Positions 9,901 through 46,037 of a stretch of DNA of 64,000 nt are shown here, piece by piece. A program made the translations under genes and the position numbers. Origin of the DNA: Clavelina lepadiformis (taxonomy: Eukaryota > Chordata > Ascidiacea > Aplousobranchia > Clavelinidae); contig NC_135245.1 in the NCBI RefSeq assembly GCF_947623445.1, positions 3,169,501 to 3,233,500 on the forward strand. The letters run 5' to 3'. Each line of letters begins with the position of its first letter. Positions within the stretch are counted from its first letter, which is position 1. The notes beneath the pieces were generated by a model. The model saw only the letters and a program-made list of their open reading frames with translations, did not search any database and had not been told where the DNA came from.

Positions 9901-12900
9901 CATAACTGCAGTGATAATACAGTGAATGGAATTTACCATGCGGTGTGCTACTTCATGGTAATTTATATATCAAATAAATAATAATCAATTAAACCATTAC
10001 TATTTCAGCATATGCTGCTATATCATTGTACCAACCAATAGCGGTATACGTGGTTTACTTAAACGTTAGAGTTGAGACGCAGATACAACTTAAATCTGAT
10101 CCCAACTTATTTATATATCTTTTGATTTAAAAAAAACACACAAACTTTATCAAGGGAAGATTTAGCAACGTGGCAGATAGTGTTGCACGTAATTAACAAT
10201 AATTACGAAAATTACGTAACAAAGCTGCTGTTACGAATGTTTGGTACAGATTACGTAATTACGCGATGTACTTCCTCGGTATATTTAATGCACACAAAAC
10301 ATCGATAACAATAGCTTTTTATCCGTCAGCATTCAATATGTAAACGCAAACGGAATGAGTGCGATAATTTTCCCCACTTGGCAAACATCGTCGTTTTTCG
10401 ACACCGAGCAACAGCGGAAAAGGACGTTTGTAATGTGACGTAATAACCTTCCTTCGGTAACTATTGCTATGAACATAAATCTAGTGTGGAAAGTAAAGCA
10501 GTGACACCATTAACCTGCTACAGTGACGTCACACTCAACGAAGCCCACGAAGAAGGTCGCTTTCACATCTCGTGCAAAAGTAGATCACACATAACGTGGA
10601 TGACGTCACGATACACAATTAAGTTTGGAAAGATGTTTGTCAGAAAATAAGTCCGATTGATAATGAATATGGCAAATAACCTTTATTTACATTTTGACTT
10701 GCCTTTAACATAAGACAAGAATAAATGAAAAATGCAGAAAAGACAATTTTTTCTGGGAAATTTCCAGCGACTGCAGGCGAAAATTAACGTAAGTTTTGCG
10801 AAACTCAGTATTAAGTATATTAGTTGTGAAGTGAACACACTTTGCCACAATGATCCAGTATTACCATAAACCAATGCCCGCTGCAGTAGGACAATTACGA
10901 AATTAAATTTTGAGTTACGTTCAAGTGGTTCAACACTAGTAACAGAGCACATGAACCATTCAACTACAAGAGTATATCATCAAACTTTAACATCAGATAG
11001 CCAAAAACAAATTTACTTTCGTGCTGTTGTTACCGTTGGCCATTGGGAATTATTGGTTTGTTCGGTATAAATTGGTAAGCCATTATGCCTTGTCCAAAAC
11101 AAAGCTACTGTAACTATGACTGCTTTTTAGGATAAATTGAATCAAACATCATTATTATCACGCTTTAAAGCATAGTAGCTCATACTGGAAATTTTGTATT
11201 TCGCGTTATACTTTCAAGCAAAAAAGATTTGTTTGATAGGGGCGTGATATTCAGGGAAATCCATTTTGAACAACTTTGGAACTTCTATTATGGATGTGAC
11301 CTTTAAGACGAGATAGAACCTTTTTTCCTTATCTTAGTTAATTACTTGAAATTTTATTGACAAGATGTTCGACTTAAAAAGAGGCAACACTAATGGACAG
11401 TTTTACTTAATGTTTAATCGAAAACGGTCTCTACGCTTTGGGCTTACAGGGAGCACTAACTGCATTAGTATCCTGTCATTAACGATTTAAGATTTTCTCT
11501 GAAAACTGACGCACTAATTTGGTCTAAAAAAAAAGAAAAGGCCAAACAGAAAGACTTGTTAATTGACTTATGGTTCTGCACGAATACGTAGACATCTTAA
11601 GGAGTTTATTTATTTGTTTCATGTTGTCAAAATCTTTTTTTTAAATTTTAATTATTTTAATTACCTATTTTTTATCAGTTCTCTCGCATTGGAATTATTA
11701 CCCTAGAGCAGTGGTTCATGACCTTTTTTGGCTTACGGCACCCTGCAAACAACCAAAAGATTTGGCGGAACCCACAGTCAAGCCAAAAAGTTTCTGCATT
11801 AATTAAAAATAATTTTCGCAATCGTTTTCCTGGACTAGTGATTAGTGCGCAATAACTTGCGGCATCCTTGCGAAATGTAAATGGCACCCTAGGGTGCCGC
11901 GGCAGCCCGGTTGAGAACCACTGCGCCTAGAGAATATATCGGATCGTTACCATCTGGTTTCTCAATTAGGAGCAACAAATTACACTAATTAGATACTAAC
12001 GAGACTGCATAAAGCAAATTCTTCACTCCTAATCGATGGGACCGCATCATCAATTATTGTTCATTATATTCAAATCTTTTCCTGATCATTTTACATTTTT
12101 CAAGATAACTGGCTAAGCCAAAAGCTACATGATTTAAAATGCATTTCATACAAGTTTAAGACGTTGTAAATTGTTACTTGGAATTTGACATGAGCAAAGA
12201 TTTGGAGCATTCTGGGGAGCTATTGTTTAAATGAGTTGTAAAGCTTACTTATTTAGTTTACTTACTTACTTACTAAGCTTATTTAGTTATCTGGAATAAA
12301 ATCTGGAATGATGCAGAGAAACGAGGTTGCTGAAATTTAGGCAAAATCATCTTCACTCAAATCACTAAATTCAATGCAAACGATAAAACCCATATAGAAA
12401 CCATAAATGACTTTCTTCAAAACAATCTTAATGTAATAATTCAAACTCCGTAATGAGGATCTTAACCACACACTGTAGACATTTTTGGTACAATAAGTAC
12501 GACAACAATAAAAGGTCAGCAGAAAATCTGTACGAAATCCACCTGGTAAAAACCAGCCCAACTTTTCCGGCAAATTAAACGGTCTGAACGAGGCAGAACT
12601 GTTTCCGAATAAAATCAAGTGTTTATAATAATCCATTACATCTGTTTGATGTATGATTACTTACATATGAGGTGTGAGAAAATAATATACGAGAATCTTC
12701 GTTATATATACACGTTTTTACACACAAATCTTTCAAAAGCAATTTCAGAATTGTGTCAAAGAAGCCGCAACCTTTCCTTTGTAAACTTGTGTTTCTGAAA
12801 CATCTAGTCTTGGATATTTTGGGGGCCAAAAACCGCGCTTAAATTTGGATGAAATGTTAAATGCTTTGCCATGCTTACAACTGCTGAAATATACAGTCAC

Positions 12901-29467: not shown

Positions 29468-29858
29468 TTAGGCTAAGCCTTAGGAATAGATTAGGTTAAG
29501 GCAGTAAGATTAGTACTCATTATGGTTGGGAAAAGAGTTAGCAATCATTATTGTTGAGTTCAATGTTGTTTCATTGCCGATTCACAAGCTAACACCGTGC
29601 AAACAACTGCCGGTTCACAACAAAAAATGATGGAAACCAGTGTCAGTTTATAACAAAAAATGATGGAAAGCATTGGGGTTCACTTGGACGCTAGCGACTG
29701 CCTTAATTCTAAGACAATTGCTAATGTTTTTTTTTTGCACTGTGACGTAGGCTAAATATACGGCGTTGTGTTTATTGTAACGGAAGCTTTCAAGTTAATG
29801 CGATAAATTTTACGGTTCCACAATTTACAAATTTAGCTGCGTTTTGTGCACGCTTGCT

Positions 29859-32363
29859 ATGGCGTCTCAACTCAGTGGATGGGATAAAGCGAAAAAGAAA
29901 AGGAAAGAAGCAGCAGAACAAGAAAAGCTTCTGGCGAAAATTCCAAAACTGAGTTCATACTTTGGAATGCGAGCAGCTTCGTCTCAATTGCCTGCGTCGG
30001 ATGCGATTGCGAATTCGAGCGCTCCTGAAGACCAGGCCAAGCAAGATGAACCTGATGAGGAAAGAGAGGATAAAGAGCGGGAAAGTTCAGCGGAGAGAGC
30101 AGAGGTGAAAGGAGACGCTATCACTGGCGAAGCACTGGCGCAAACGCTGGAGGATATCACCAATGATTTAGGACAGTGGGGTAAAATCAACGCTGACACT
30201 CGAGAATATTGGGCCAAGAAAGGTTCAAAACACTGCCAACACACTGAATCGATGTTTGAAGAGAGCGCCAGACAATACCTAGGTGAATCATTCCAACGTC
30301 GATGCACTAAGACCTTCTTCGTGCGTACGCATCCGCTCAATGGTGAAAAATCCTATAGACAATGGTTGTGCTACTCGCCTTCGACCGGGAAGGTGTTCTG
30401 CTTTGCATGCAAGTTGTTCGGTGGTAATGCTGTTCAAGCAACCAAGTTCGTATCCGGCGGTTTCGACAATTGGAGGACAGGCGAATCCAGAATAAAAATG
30501 CATGAAAGCAGCGATGGTCATCGCAAGGCTATGTTGTCTTTTGCGAGCCGACAGAGGGAGGCCGGTCGTGTTGACTACCTAGCCGCTAAACAGGTCGAGG
30601 AAGAGCGGTGTTACTGGCGCCAGATTGTAAAGCGGCTCATCGACGTTCTGATATTCCTAGCTAAGCGTGGCCTTGCTATAAGGGGCGCGGATGAGATCAT
30701 AGGTTCCCCTCATAATGATAACTACCTTGGCATCATTGAGTTGTTGGCGGAGTACGATACTCTGCTGGCTAGCCATATTAGAAAATATGCGAACTGCGGG
30801 AAAGGTCACATTTCTTATTTGTCATCCACAATTTGCGAGGAGCTGGTGCAGCTCATGGGACAAAAGGTGCAGGACACCATCCTGAAAGAAGCCAAGAAGG
30901 CGAAGTATTTCTCTGTCTCGATTGACTCTACACCTGACGTATCACACCTCGACCAGCTAACGATTGTTATTCGATATGTTCTGCCGTTGGGTCCAGTTGA
31001 ACGGTTCCTGACATTCTTGCCTATGATGAGACACACCGCTACGCACATGGCTAGCATACTTCTGAACTTTCTGAAGGAAAATGGCTTGGATGTTACTAAC
31101 TGCAGAGGCCAGTCGTATGACAATGCGTCAAACATGTCAGGACGGTACAACGGTGTCCAGGCAATTGTGAAGCGAGAATGTAAATATGCTGCTTTTATTC
31201 CATGCTGCAACCACAGTTTAAACCTGGTAGGAGACCAGGCTGTTAATAGCTGCGCTGGCTGTACCAGGTTTTTTCATTTTGTCAATGGACTATACGTTTT
31301 CCTGTCTGAATCGACATATCGCTGGCAGAAACTGAAGAATCGCTGCACATTAACGCTCAAAGGTTTGTCTGGAACCCGATGGTGTGAACGTGCAGATGCT
31401 GTCAAAGCGCTAGTAGAAGGGTGGAAGAGCATTCAAGAAGTCCTGGATGAGCTTGCGGCAGATAAGGAGCAGAAGGCCGATACGAGAAACCAGGCCGACG
31501 GATTTTCGCGCAGGATGGACGAACTTGAGACAGCAGTTATGGCGACTGCCTGGAACGATATCCTATGCCGTCTCAACAGTACGAGCATTAGCCTCCAAGA
31601 CCCTACAGTCAGTCTGAATACGGCAACTAGTTTATTGGCATCACTGGTCGACACGATTCAATTTGCACGGGACAGATTTGACGTGTATGAGCAGATGGCG
31701 ATCGAAAAGGTTCCTCACGGCGAATACAAGTCTGAAGAACGTCGAGGCCGTAAGCGAAAGCGAATGCCTGATGAAGGAGCTGCAAACGAAGAAAACCTCA
31801 CCCCTAGGGAAACATTCAAAACCCATATATATCTGGTCATGATCGACAGACTGTTAGCTGAACTGGAAAAGCGAATGAAGGCGTATGAGGATATATCTAC
31901 AACATTCGGCTTTCTTTCGGAGCTAACGTCATTGAGCATAAAGCAGATCGAGAATAAAGCTCAAAATCTCGTTTCCTCGTATCCAGATGACTTGGAAGAC
32001 ACGCTGGTGGCTGAGCTCATACAGTTTGCTGCATTTATGCGCACCCAGAAATCGGTGAGTGTGAACGAGTCAGCAGAGCTTACCATGTACAAGCTTTTGT
32101 CGTCGTTGAACCTTTCTCAAACATTTCCAAACGTCGAGATTGCTTTGCGCATCTATCTGTGCTTGATGGTGTCTAATGCCTCCGGCGAGCGGAGCTTCTC
32201 AAAACTGGGAATAGTCAAAGGAGAGCTGCGGTCCTCGATGAGGGAGGAAAGGCTAAACATGCTGGCGCTTATGAGCATTGAACATGAGGTGCTGAGCAGC
32301 CTTGACTGCACTGACATGATCGAAGATTTCGCGCTTGCTAAGGCTCGAAAAACAGTAGTATAA
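29859..32363 (+). CDS. hAT transposase, ZMYM1/TTF-zinc-finger type (834 aa)
   Basis: The protein catalyses cut-and-paste transposition of the surrounding element. ATG 29859 (MASQLSGWDK) is the first Met of the frame. A basic N terminus is followed by a TTF-type zinc finger around residues 110-225 (ESFQRRCTKTFF, VFCFACKLFG). A DUF4371-like/RNase H core comes next, with Asp in SVSIDSTPDV and in GQSYDNASNMSG. A helical insertion domain follows, and a C-terminal hAT dimerisation domain (VSNASGERSFSKL, MREERLNMLALMSIEHE). Length suits an intact family member and the frame is unbroken. Base composition is visibly richer in GC than the surroundings, consistent with a recent arrival. A domesticated host gene is less likely because both termini and target duplications remain. 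Confidence 0.9.
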   Translation: MASQLSGWDKAKKKRKEAAEQEKLLAKIPKLSSYFGMRAASSQLPASDAIANSSAPEDQAKQDEPDEEREDKERESSAERAEVKGDAITGEALAQTLEDITNDLGQWGKINADTREYWAKKGSKHCQHTESMFEESARQYLGESFQRRCTKTFFVRTHPLNGEKSYRQWLCYSPSTGKVFCFACKLFGGNAVQATKFVSGGFDNWRTGESRIKMHESSDGHRKAMLSFASRQREAGRVDYLAAKQVEEERCYWRQIVKRLIDVLIFLAKRGLAIRGADEIIGSPHNDNYLGIIELLAEYDTLLASHIRKYANCGKGHISYLSSTICEELVQLMGQKVQDTILKEAKKAKYFSVSIDSTPDVSHLDQLTIVIRYVLPLGPVERFLTFLPMMRHTATHMASILLNFLKENGLDVTNCRGQSYDNASNMSGRYNGVQAIVKRECKYAAFIPCCNHSLNLVGDQAVNSCAGCTRFFHFVNGLYVFLSESTYRWQKLKNRCTLTLKGLSGTRWCERADAVKALVEGWKSIQEVLDELAADKEQKADTRNQADGFSRRMDELETAVMATAWNDILCRLNSTSISLQDPTVSLNTATSLLASLVDTIQFARDRFDVYEQMAIEKVPHGEYKSEERRGRKRKRMPDEGAANEENLTPRETFKTHIYLVMIDRLLAELEKRMKAYEDISTTFGFLSELTSLSIKQIENKAQNLVSSYPDDLEDTLVAELIQFAAFMRTQKSVSVNESAELTMYKLLSSLNLSQTFPNVEIALRIYLCLMVSNASGERSFSKLGIVKGELRSSMREERLNMLALMSIEHEVLSSLDCTDMIEDFALAKARKTVV

Positions 32364-36200: not shown

Positions 36201-39200
36201 GAGCATTTTCAACGTTTAAAACTACTGTAACTGTATAATATTAATGACAAACGTAAATTAACCACTTTACCCATCAAATATAATAATTGGTTTTATTCGA
36301 CACTTCTGCATATTTTTGACGAATTTCACAATCTGTTCCCGAAAAACTCTGTAGTTACCTCTGCAAAAACAAATGATTTCGTAAACTTGACACCCAAAGA
36401 TAGGGATGAGTGCACTATTATAACATATAAAGTACGGAGGGAAGTTTGTTGTTAACCACAGTCAGTTAAAGGAACGAGCGAGTTCACAAGTTATCCGCAA
36501 ATAATAAAATTAGCGACAAATGTAAATACCCGGCGACAAAAGTTGTGCATAATGAATTACCAAGTATCAACACTGGTTTGAACTTTTATTTTAAAATCAA
36601 ACATGAAATTGGTATTGTGGTTGCGAAAATTAGATGTACAGTATCCTTTAAGCACAAACAATATAACCATCACGGTATTGCGCCCATGGATGTGATATAC
36701 TTTTAACAAGTTTAGTTGTAATTATTTATGGAACGCCAACGCCGCAAAAATGGCAAAGTGTTAAATTGAATCGCAAGTATGCAATTTATGTATTGTTTTC
36801 ATAATTTGATTGGAAGGTTTTCAAACGTAACTTTATAGATTCAAATCACGAAACAACAAGCCAAACGCCAAAGCCGGCAATCAAACGGTCTTTTCTGTGA
36901 TTGCTGTTGCACGATTCATATGGCAATTTTCAAAATGGTTTCGCAACATTTACAATTACACCACAGTTTTATAAACTTGATTTTTCAAATCAAACCACGA
37001 CATTTTAAGTCAGATATAACAACTGCAAAGCAAACTGGCTGTTGGCAAGTTACAATGCCTAATGGCAAATGGTATTTTCTTTAATCGGATTGCAGTTTTG
37101 TTAATCACATGTCGGTTTTTTGAATCATGTAACTTATACCATGAATTATAAAATGGCCAAATGTATAGATGATTTGCCAAAAGTGCATGAATCGCTAAAT
37201 GTACATGATTCGGTAAATGCATGCATGAATCGCCAAATGTACATGATTCGGTAAATGCATGCATGAATCGCCAAATGTACATGATTCGGTAAATGCATGC
37301 ATGAATCGCCAAATGTACATGATTCGGTAAATGCATGCATGAATCGCCAAATGTACGTGATTCGACAAATGTATGCGTGAATCGCCAAATGTACGTGATT
37401 CGATGAATGTATGCGTGAATCGTCAAATGTACGTGATTCGATGAATGTATGCGTGAATCGACAAATGTATGGATGGTTCGTTGTTAAAGTGCGCCGCGCC
37501 AAGTGTGCAAAAATGTCTCTATTGGGGAAAAAATGTCTCTCTTGGGGATACCAAGAAGAAAAAGGGATTTTGAGAGAAGACAAAGTTTTCTGAATAGCCT
37601 ATGTTTCGGGCAGGCCGAAAGTTACCGTGTACCGTCAGTGCAAAATACTTTGCGATCAGCAATAAGCGTAAGCTTAGTTTTGTTCGCAATGAAGAATGGG
37701 ATGTTTCTTTAGAAGTTATTTCAACACTACACGCGCTAGGTTATGTTCTATTTGAAATGTGATTATTAAGCCGGGCCAGTACTGCAGTGCTGTGGTATTC
37801 CTTTCCATTCAGGTCTGCAATTCTGACTGCAAAATGAAATAAACCCAACCAACCTCATGTGCTGCTTAATAAAACGCTAAAAGGCGCTCTTGAAAGACGA
37901 GCCTGAATAGGATATACCAGCCTACCACAGCACTGCAGTACTGGCCCGGCTTAATAATCACTAGGGCAACCAGTTTTTTGACCTAAAAATGTTAAATTTT
38001 GACCTTAAAATTTGCAAATTTTGACCTCATTTTGACCTAAAAAGTTTAAATTTTCACCTCATTTTGAAAAACGCTATACTGATAGTCTCTACACTGTCTA
38101 CAGCAACTTTCTAATCTAAAGCTGCATTTAAAAATGACAAAATGTTTTTCTAGTGTTGACTTTTTTTCGTTTCTGCGTATTAAGATTGACAACTTGCAGT
38201 TTCAAATGCAATGACGTCACATCGTGACGTCACATCGTGACGCCACCAAACGCGCTGAAAAGCCTTCCCTCTCTTTGTAGCTTTGGTTCTAAGTAAAATT
38301 TGCGGGACTGGAATTGTTTGCGGTACAAGAAAAGAGAAAAACGGAAGAATAATATTACAAAATGGTTACAAAATTACAAGTTTAATAGATTTTGACCTAA
38401 AAAAAAGACCTAACGAAACAATTTGACCGTATTTTGACCTAACGTAACATTTTGACTTTATCTCACCTAATAACTTCTATACCACACGTCGTACAAAGCT
38501 GAAATTTGTTTTGTGCTTGTTTCATAGCATTCTGAGCAGGTAAAAAAAATTGACCATATTGACTTTTGGTTGCCCTAATAATCACATTTCAAATACAGTC
38601 GAATCCGCTTAATTCGGACACCGGATAACCCGGACAAGCGCTTTATTCGGCCAAAATGCTCGGGAACGGAACAAAAGTAAAAATTGAACGTAAAAAACTC
38701 CCGTTAATTCGGACAATTCTCCGCTTAATTCGGACACAGGTTCGCAATTCCTATCGTTACATCGTTAGGTTATGAAACAATAAACAGTACTTTGTTGGTT
38801 CTAACACAAGACGCAGTTGCATTATGAGTGATTATGGTGAAACAATGACGATTCATGCGATAACAATCGACAATGAATTCATATAACGCCGTGCCAGCTT
38901 CATAGTCGCTTTTACTTCGGTACCATTGCGACCATCTTGTAGAACAGAATGGTACAGAAAAATTTAGGAGAAAAAGTGAAATTGCTCACTAAAGTAAACG
39001 AAGAAAAAAATGACGACGCTTCCTTGACAGTTCGGCAGTTAGTTGCGTTGGTGGGGATATCAAAACGTACTTTGCAAGATTGGCAGAAAAATGATGCAAA
39101 TCTGCGTGAACAACGTGAAGAGACTATGCTTCGTGGACGAGGTTTAAAGACAGAGAGGAAGCGGCTCAGAATGTGCGTTTTATGCGTACTCATTTACTCG

Positions 39201-40985
39201 TACTCTTGTGCGTTTTATGCGATCAGTGCCAATTACTGCAGTATAGCACAGGTGCAATTCATTTATTACGCAACACTACAGTATTTTAAATGCGTTGTTT
39301 GTCTTTACGCATGACCATGAAACGAACAATCGATTTTCCGCTTAATTCGGACAAAGCCGTTTCTCCGCTTAATTCGGCCAAAAGTGAGCGGAACCAAAGT
39401 GTCCGAATTAAGCGGAGTCGACTGTAGAACATAACCTAGCGCGTGTAGTGTTGAAATAACTTCTAAAGAAACATCCCATTCTTCATTGCGAACAAAACTA
39501 AGCTTACGCTTATTGCTGATCGCAAAGTATTTTGCACTGACGGTACACGGTAACTTTCGGCCTGCCCGAAACATAGGCTATTCAGAAAACTTTGTCTTCT
39601 CTCAAAATCCCTTTTTCTTCTTGGTATCCCCAAGAGAGACATTTTTTCCCCAATAGAGACATTTTTGCACACTTGGCGCGGCGCACTTTAACAACGAACC
39701 ATCCATACATTTGTCGATTCATGTACATTTGGCGATTCACGCATACATTCATCGAATCACGTACATTTGGCGATTCACGCATACATTTGTCGAATCACGT
39801 ACATTTGGCGATTCACGCATACATTTGTCGAATCACGTACATTTGGCGATTCACGCATACATTCATCGAATCACGTACATTTGGCGATTCACGCATACAT
39901 TTGTCGAATCACGTACATTTGGCGATTCACGCATACATTTGTCGAATCACGTACATTTGGCGATTCACGCATACATTTGTCGAATCACGTACATTTGGCG
40001 ATTCATGCATGCATTTACCGAATCATGTACATTTGGCGATTCATGCATGCATTTACCGAATCATGTACATTTAGCGATTCATGCACTTTTGGCAAATCAT
40101 CTATACATTTGCCGATCCATCTATACTTGGCAATTCATGAAGACGTTATGTGATTCATACGTACTTTTATAGAATCATTTAGTGCTTTTAGGAATGCATG
40201 TTTGTTTAATCACGTATGAATTTTGCAAATTGGTTCGCCCATTTTTAATTCACGAAGACTAATTTCCAATCATTTGGCCATTTTATAATTCATGGTATAA
40301 GTTACATGATTCAAAAAACCGACATGTGATTAACAAAACTGCAATCCGATTAAAGAAAATACCATTTGCCATTAGGCATTGTAACTTGCCAACAGCCAGT
40401 TTGCTTTGCAGTTGTTATATCTGACTTAAAATGTCGTGGTTTGATTTGAAAAATCAAGTTTATAAAACTGTGGTGTAATTGTAAATGTTGCGAAACCATT
40501 TTGAAAATTGCCATATGAATCGTGCAACAGCAATCACAGAAAAGACCGTTTGATTGCCGGCTTTGGCGTTTGGCTTGTTGTTTCGTGATTTGAATCTATA
40601 AAGTTACGTTTGAAAACCTTCCAATCAAATTATGAAAACAAAACATAATTTGCAAAGTTCCCATTCAATTTAACATTTTGCTATTTTTGCGGCGTTGGCG
40701 TTCCATAATTATTGTCTCATAAGCCTAAGTATTACTGTACTTGCTATCAATCTAAAATGTTCTTCAATGGAGTATAGATATGTAAACTTCACCTGGGTGC
40801 AACATACCAAGGTAGCTGGTTTAAGAGGTTATAACAACGACATACCTTCCTTTTGCGTTGCAATTGCTGTGAAGCGTATAGAGTAGCTCGCTCCCATCTA
40901 TTACAATCGTTGTATTGGAAACTTTTACTTTCGATAAAACTCCTTGATTTTTTTCCAAAAAGGTTTGAAATCCTTTGATACCCAT
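33287..40985 (-). CDS. Asteroid homolog (ASTE1-like) XPG/FEN-family nuclease, six exons (565 aa)
   Basis: The family members are structure-specific DNA endonucleases of the XPG/FEN1 type. Exons in transcript order: 40985-40846, 36360-36271, 35345-35263, 35006-34819, 34703-34563, 34342-33287; all phases match. The protein opens MGIKGFQTFLE, the XPG N-terminal motif, with metal-ligand Asp 30 (VIDGSELLY) and Asp 76 (PIIIFDG). The XPG-I part has KDTDEDIAAIS around 124-134 and VVATDTIFCAYNL around 141-152. Exon 5 and the long last exon resemble the asteroid C-terminal region (FAETYNMDRQAIS). The usual second Asp of the DSD motif is Ile 147 here, so one catalytic ligand may be lost. Exon 3 is the least certain. 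Intron 1 (36361-40845) contains the giant foldback element. Confidence 0.8.
37183..37480 (-). repeat. 38-bp tandem array in the left arm (about 7 units)
   Basis: Units of 38 bp contain GTACATGATTCGG or GTACGTGATTCGA followed by AATGCATGCATGAATCGCC. Four units are of the first subtype and three of the second. Because 38 is not a multiple of three and the unit has no stop on the minus strand, all three frames stay open. The resulting ORFs are artefacts. Confidence 0.85.
37962..38577. mobile_element. hAT MITE nested in the foldback right arm (616 bp)
   Basis: Ends are TAGGGCAACC and GGTTGCCCTA with an exact 8-bp duplication, ataatcac (37954-37961, 38578-38585). The duplicated site is foldback-arm sequence, so the insertion came after the palindrome formed. 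The interior is rich in TTTTGACCTAA-like runs and contains a triple TGACGTCACATCG block at 38212-38246. No ORF. Confidence 0.85.
38596..39424 (+). mobile_element. Pogo/Tigger-like element nested in the foldback right arm (829 bp)
   Basis: Termini CAGTCGAATCCGCTTAATTC and AAGCGGAGTCGACTG are flanked by TA (38594-38595, 39425-39426). Removing it restores pairing of the arms (ATTTCAAA-TA-GAACATAACC against the left arm). It keeps the start of a transposase ORF from ATG 38949 and is a deletion derivative of an autonomous element. Confidence 0.88.
38949..39170 (+). pseudogene. N-terminal HTH fragment of a Tigger/CENP-B-like transposase
   Basis: The frame encodes EKVKLLTKVNEE, then a psq-type helix-turn-helix, LTVRQLVALVGISKRTLQDW, then a basic RGRGLKTERKRLR stretch, the usual start of the pogo/CENP-B DNA-binding region. 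The second HTH and the DDE domain are missing, so the protein cannot be active. Beyond about 39170 the frame continues into unrelated sequence. Confidence 0.65.
39715..40100 (+). repeat. 38-bp tandem array in the right arm (about 9 units)
   Basis: The mirror-image partner of the array at 37183-37480, with nine units. The GTACATTTGGCGATTCACGC subtype is expanded to seven and the ATTTACCGAATCATGTAC subtype reduced to two. Copy number and subtype counts differ from the left arm although neighbouring arm sequence is nearly identical. Confidence 0.85.

Positions 40986-43423: not shown

Positions 43424-46037
<2,614 letters not shown>

Follow-up and report, generated by a model that had tools for sequence, protein, structure and literature searches.

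A 64,000-nucleotide stretch of the Clavelina lepadiformis genome (assembly GCF_947623445.1, contig NC_135245.1, forward-strand positions 3,169,501 to 3,233,500; hereafter the window, in whose numbering positions without a contig prefix are given) contains at positions 36727–40707 a long palindrome that is one member of a multicopy transposon family, and that is very probably a non-autonomous foldback element of an IS3EU-type family, produced by internal deletion of a parent with long inverted repeats. A first-pass annotation, made from the letters of the window, had described the palindrome as a foldback whose ends match no family that could be named; this last statement is superseded, since the ends, the 6-bp target site duplication and the rva_4 transposase pieces in a related element on C5 are all IS3EU-like. 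In a single genome there are long elements that carry transposase pieces, a form with a simple internal deletion (L012), a foldback without the hAT insertion described below (L029), foldbacks with it, and copies that have become palindromic a second time, so that their coexistence reveals much of the succession of events.

The window element is composed of the following parts:

36721–36726, left target site duplication ATTATT, 6 bp, read from the sequence, its length being set by 14 of 17 elements
36727–37797, plus strand, left arm, free of insertions, starting TATGGAACGCC
37184–37469, 38-bp tandem array of the left arm, 7.5 units
37798–37922, loop, 125 bp, corresponding to sub-terminal sequence of the C5 element
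37923–40707, minus strand, right arm with hAT and pogo-like insertions, ending GGCGTTCCATA
37962–38577, hAT-type non-autonomous insertion, with the 8-bp duplication ATAATCAC at 37954–37961 and 38578–38585
38596–39424, pogo-like insertion, with a TA duplication at 38594–38595 and 39425–39426
39704–40085, 38-bp tandem array of the right arm, 10.1 units
40708–40713, right target site duplication ATTATT, read from the sequence

Pairing of the two arms runs from 36727/40707 inward to 37797/37923; they measure 1,071 bp on the left and 1,330 bp on the right once the insertions and their duplications are subtracted, which bears out the earlier claims of arms longer than 1 kb and of tandem arrays within them. 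The loop had been placed at 37798–37919 with a length of about 120 bp; its start holds, while its end moves to 37922. Identity between the arms is 98% across a stretch of 441 nt in which 4 flanking bases are counted, and reaches 100% both across 297 nt of the inner arm (37454–37750 vs. 39425–39721) and across the 39 nt adjoining the loop. The longest exact inverted match spans 371 bp, while shuffles of 2-base blocks (n = 50) reach no more than 20 bp. The element thus has the long inverted repeats, the internal tandem arrays, the predominance of repeats over its length and the short middle that characterize foldback architecture. The hAT label of the insertion at 37962–38577 is that of the first-pass annotation, retained on the basis of its ends and duplication, and the pogo-like insertion has helix-turn-helix matches that lie under the Pfam cut-offs.

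As the first-pass annotation had proposed, the genome was searched with the terminus for further copies. The pattern TATGGAACGCCNNCGCC, with at most one mismatch, was found at 76 sites in the 209-Mb genome, as compared with 4 sites for the reversed control pattern. The two-ended set that was fetched comprised 15 loci with facing ends, including the window's own, together with five clustered ends on C5, among which are two further elements. An exact 6-bp flanking duplication was present in 14 of these 17 two-ended elements, while none of the 272 control pairings of flanks from different copies gave an exact 6-bp match, and no exact flank match of 4, 5 or 7–10 bp was seen in any of the 17. Hence, of the two duplication lengths initially considered for the window element, 6 bp (ATTATT) stands and 8 bp does not. 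TATGG..CCATA ends occur in all 15 two-ended loci and in both C5 elements, a consistency that is partly due to the selection of the loci by this very terminus at up to one mismatch. For the site of the window element itself, neither a second allele nor an empty paralogue was found, and the 400-bp flank on its left is single-copy in the genome.

The element on C5 (C5:9564623–9574916; 10,294 bp) carries the same termini as the foldbacks, and its inverted repeats of 1621 and 1835 bp, array included, both contain the loop sequence of the foldbacks (125 bp at 96.8% in the right repeat, 116 bp at 96.6% in the left). Between the repeats lie pieces of an integrase-type transposase of the rva_4 family (PF24764; best E 2.5e-22), four in number, which correspond to profile positions 1–27, 19–70, 48–121 and 119–191 of 194 and follow each other in order on a single strand. 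The frames contain WHID, RSDKG and SRIE, which we take for the catalytic D, D and E. A partner with the same ends is present in the form of an element with transposase pieces. This element, copy B, is inserted in an outer copy, A, and removal of B and of one AATGTG from A restores a sequence identical to B at 10,294 of 10,294 bases; correspondingly, the empty target is visible in B as a single AATGTG. Thus both further copies and an empty site, whose absence the first-pass annotation had named as speaking against a mobile element, were found. As A and B have not diverged, the jump of B looks recent. Mis-assembly could also account for the identity of A and B, leaving the 6-bp duplication unexplained. 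In the surrounding region (C5:9561605–9582198; L024–L026), outer copy A adjoins the pogo fragment of another foldback.

Other relatives extend this picture. L012 is a 3.8-kb internally deleted form with an rva_4 transposase remnant inside and the duplication TGATCG, and in L029 an rva_4 remnant lies approximately 3.3 kb past the end of the foldback. A subfamily at 15.69 and 15.71 Mb on C5 has diverged by about 14% in the outer arm and by up to 23% in the inner arm, with the 38-bp period of the array retained. The region C1:1.4–3.7 Mb is rich in termini, parental junctions and rva_4 pieces, and is perhaps a transposon-rich region. A second group of rva_4 (PF24764) matches, at C5:19002333 and 12 other places (at least 98 bits), has long frames free of stops, with 6 of its 13 members in a 443-aa open frame, and may have been active recently; at one of its loci, L030, no long inverted repeat was seen within the 4.5 kb examined.

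Based on these relationships, we propose that the parent would have been approximately 10 kb long, bounded by extended terminal inverted repeats that already carried the 38-bp arrays, and would have had a gene for an integrase-like (DDE) rva_4 transposase. As the junctions suggest, two arms and a short loop would remain after a deletion that starts within the left repeat and stops within the right repeat 125 bp further in: a single deletion between the inner end of the left arm and the inner boundary of the right-hand copy of the loop sequence reproduces the order arm, loop, arm. The parental context of the loop is common to the C5 element and to L027, which is 14–23% diverged, and this sharing by a diverged relative indicates that the foldback junction is the derived state. 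There are 16 genomic sites, in 14 loci, with the foldback arm–loop junction; the parental junction has 9 sites, and the two C5 copies account for four of these. An IS3EU-type transposase supplied in trans would then recognize the TATGGAACGCC ends and move the foldback, and the 6-bp duplication, which is itself observed, would reflect staggered cleavage of the target by 6 bp. The hAT and pogo-like elements would have entered one arm of an ancestral foldback, in either order; the foldback enlarged by these insertions would be the form that spread most, and the window copy would have integrated into the first coding intron of a gene for an XPG-type nuclease.

The same palindrome might instead have been generated by snap-back synthesis from one broken end. 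The arm–loop junction has a 1-bp overlap, which fits snap-back and deletion alike, and two copies discussed below add some weight to the former, since the secondary palindrome of L014 and L020 requires an inverted duplication of one half, and both outer arms of L020 group with the insert-free arm of the window copy, L018_L (99/97). Against this, loop sequence is present at both ends of the C5 element, so that one deletion suffices without any inversion, and within a copy the outer arms tend to belong to different shared groups, as expected if two parental repeats were retained. We therefore regard snap-back as an unlikely origin of the foldback. Palindromes of this size can be misassembled, and this general experience is what an assembly artifact has in its favor; the recurrence of one arm–loop junction at 16 sites in 14 loci, and the fact that 10 of those loci, for which both ends were fetched, differ in their flanks and have each their own 6-bp duplication, reduce the probability of a false palindrome to almost nothing.

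The family assignment rests on a comparison with known systems. Complete IS3EU families are described with TA..TA termini and usually 6-bp duplications (PMC10045372), and fungal IS3EU elements with TAYGG..CCRTA ends, 6 bp, and terminal inverted repeats (TIRs) longer than 30 bp (PMC12730594). The family studied here resembles IS3EU/GingerRoot elements in its TA..TA ends, in the TATGG..CCATA motif, in the 6-bp duplication and in the integrase-type transposase pieces of the long C5 element. It differs in having inverted repeats of 1.6–1.8 kb with 38-bp arrays, and foldbacks derived from them, in contrast to the TIRs of over 30 bp in fungal IS3EU (PMC12730594) and of 36 bp in the IS3EU-related Styx (PMC10853768).

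The first-pass annotation had been reminded of Foldback and Galileo elements by the long, repetitive arms. As a statement on architecture and mobility this is confirmed, whereas membership in a Foldback/Mutator or Galileo/P family is very improbable. Most foldbacks are held to be Mutator elements, with Galileo among the exceptions (PMC4079207), and Galileo, a member of the P superfamily, shares with the present family long, internally repetitive inverted repeats, copies that consist of two TIRs without transposase, TIRs of up to about 1.26 kb and chimeric copies, while it differs by a 7-bp duplication and a P-type transposase (PMC3573991). Likewise, Tm1, Tetris and FARE are similar in foldback architecture and, for Tm1, in nested insertions, and differ in their duplications (mostly 9 bp in Tm1, 8–10 bp in Tetris) and in that they either have a Mutator-like element (MULE) transposase (Tm1, FARE) or are assigned to Mutator (Tetris) (PMC4079207, PMC3169594). 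Here the duplication is exactly 6 bp in 14 of 17 elements and 7–10 bp in none, so that neither the 8–10 bp of Foldback/Mutator nor the 7 bp of Galileo is found, and the transposase pieces between these ends belong to rva_4. No MULE or P-type match was obtained for five frames of the C5 interior compared with Pfam, the rest of the interior being unscanned for other families. The literature searched yielded no description of an IS3EU element in foldback form, most subscription papers and Repbase being beyond reach. A foldback derived from an integrase-type transposon would back the independent origins from unrelated transposons that have been proposed for such elements (PMC4079207, PMC3169594).

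Several points weigh against the reading of the window element as an IS3EU-type foldback formed by deletion. The sequence fetched covers 38 of the 76 termini, of which a few, in view of the 4 control sites, may be chance matches, and a matching duplication is absent at L009, at L011 and at outer C5 copy A. The IS3EU-type name would follow from the ends, the duplication length and the integrase domain rather than from a tree, and the link of the transposase to movement of the foldback is one that we infer. The C5 transposase is distributed among several frames, and one stop each (TGA, TAG) is crossed in two of the four pieces; introns would explain this pattern, as would decay. Finally, the left repeat of B is without inner-arm positions 94–327. 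As this repeat is incomplete, B is not the direct parent, which would instead be a relative whose left repeat is complete; the fetched loci included no such element.

The insertions in the right arm give a relative chronology. Both are present in nine of the 15 two-ended loci (in one of these, L011, the outer edge of hAT and the loop are deleted), hAT alone in L014 and L020, a pogo fragment alone in L022, and neither in L009, L012 and L013. The hAT element stands at the same position in 12 of 14 foldback loci (at most two mismatches; two matches with three mismatches lie elsewhere); the remaining two, C1:2149083 (in L029) and C1:2237444, hold the only foldback junctions that carry mismatches. 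The pogo junction lies at the same internal position in 10 loci. These insertions therefore predate the spread of the copies, i.e. they occurred in an ancestor. It had been proposed that hAT and pogo inserted into a local palindrome at the window locus itself, and the duplications of both insertions are indeed intact there, but the identical internal positions at 12 and 10 loci, respectively, mean that they did not land at this locus, and we give a local origin practically no credence. The other part of that proposal, a palindrome older than hAT, stands, because L029, a more diverged foldback, has the same arm–loop junction and yet an arm unbroken at the hAT site. A 373-bp insertion at L014:1081–1453, flanked by the 8-bp repeat gaatagcc, is a further marker of insertion before spread, as 362 bp of it recur at 99.7% in L015 and L016, all three copies being at different targets.

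L014 and L020 contain, in addition, a second palindrome centered on hAT. In both, two facing hAT stretches end at hAT positions 355 and 600, and on either side of the hAT-centered junction follow the hAT outer end, the loop and an arm; the junction itself occurs at only 2 sites in the genome (at most three mismatches), namely these two loci. In the nine copies that have both insertions, hAT is confined to one arm; hence one half must have been duplicated in inverse orientation, and since L014 and L020 lie at different targets, each with its own 6-bp duplication, the rebuilt element moved. In a tree of the arms, both arms of L020 stand beside L018_L, while those of L014 fall in different groups, which suggests a later exchange of an outer arm in L014 or a more complex event. 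Taken together, we consider it rather probable that the foldback form evolved anew in the IS3EU superfamily and that a half, once lost, was subsequently replaced by copying the remaining one (arm, loop and part of hAT) in inverted orientation, which gave the element two ends again and left it mobile.

General homogenization of the two arms of each copy was also considered, and the picture is mixed, without a general trend: the outer arms of one copy are mostly not the closest relatives of each other, though exceptions exist. Over the outer 424 bp, 0–16 differences were counted within copies (13 elements; L009, L013 and L016, with a short or split arm, are omitted as pairs), with between-copy medians of 11–15.5. 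The arms of one copy are usually placed in different groups, roughly insert-bearing vs. insert-free, in a tree in which L013, L027 and L029 are represented by a single arm and many branches are poorly supported (6/25 starred). For eight copies, the mean differences were 9.25 between insert-bearing arms, 12.9 between the other arms, 13.9 between insert-bearing and other arms of different copies and 9.9 between the two arms of one copy; the last two values may point to some exchange of sequence between arms, and so may the nearly identical arms of L012 (0/424), L023 (2/424) and the C5 element (3/425). In the inner arm there were no differences within the window copy (0/280), L020 (0/280) or L011 (0/188), and 2–7 differences over 128–286 columns in the other nine pairs, with between-copy medians of 3.0–10.3 per 280.

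The position of the window element within a gene follows from the exons on either side, which are:

40846–40985, minus strand, exon 1 of an XPG/FEN-type nuclease gene (MGIKGF...), boundaries approximate
36267–36408, minus strand, exon 2 of the same gene, boundaries approximate

Joined, the two exons match XPG_N (E 2.8e-07), and the foldback sits in the intron between exon 1 on its right and exon 2 on its left, in agreement with the placement in a first intron made initially; we take the gene to be Asteroid-like. Elsewhere in the window, positions 29799–32363 of the plus strand hold an unbroken frame of 854 aa with DUF4371 and a hAT dimerization domain, by its sequence a putative hAT transposase-like gene, intact or domesticated, and positions 44836–45096 of the minus strand an exon-like frame with similarity to trypsin-type proteases (E 6.5e-08).

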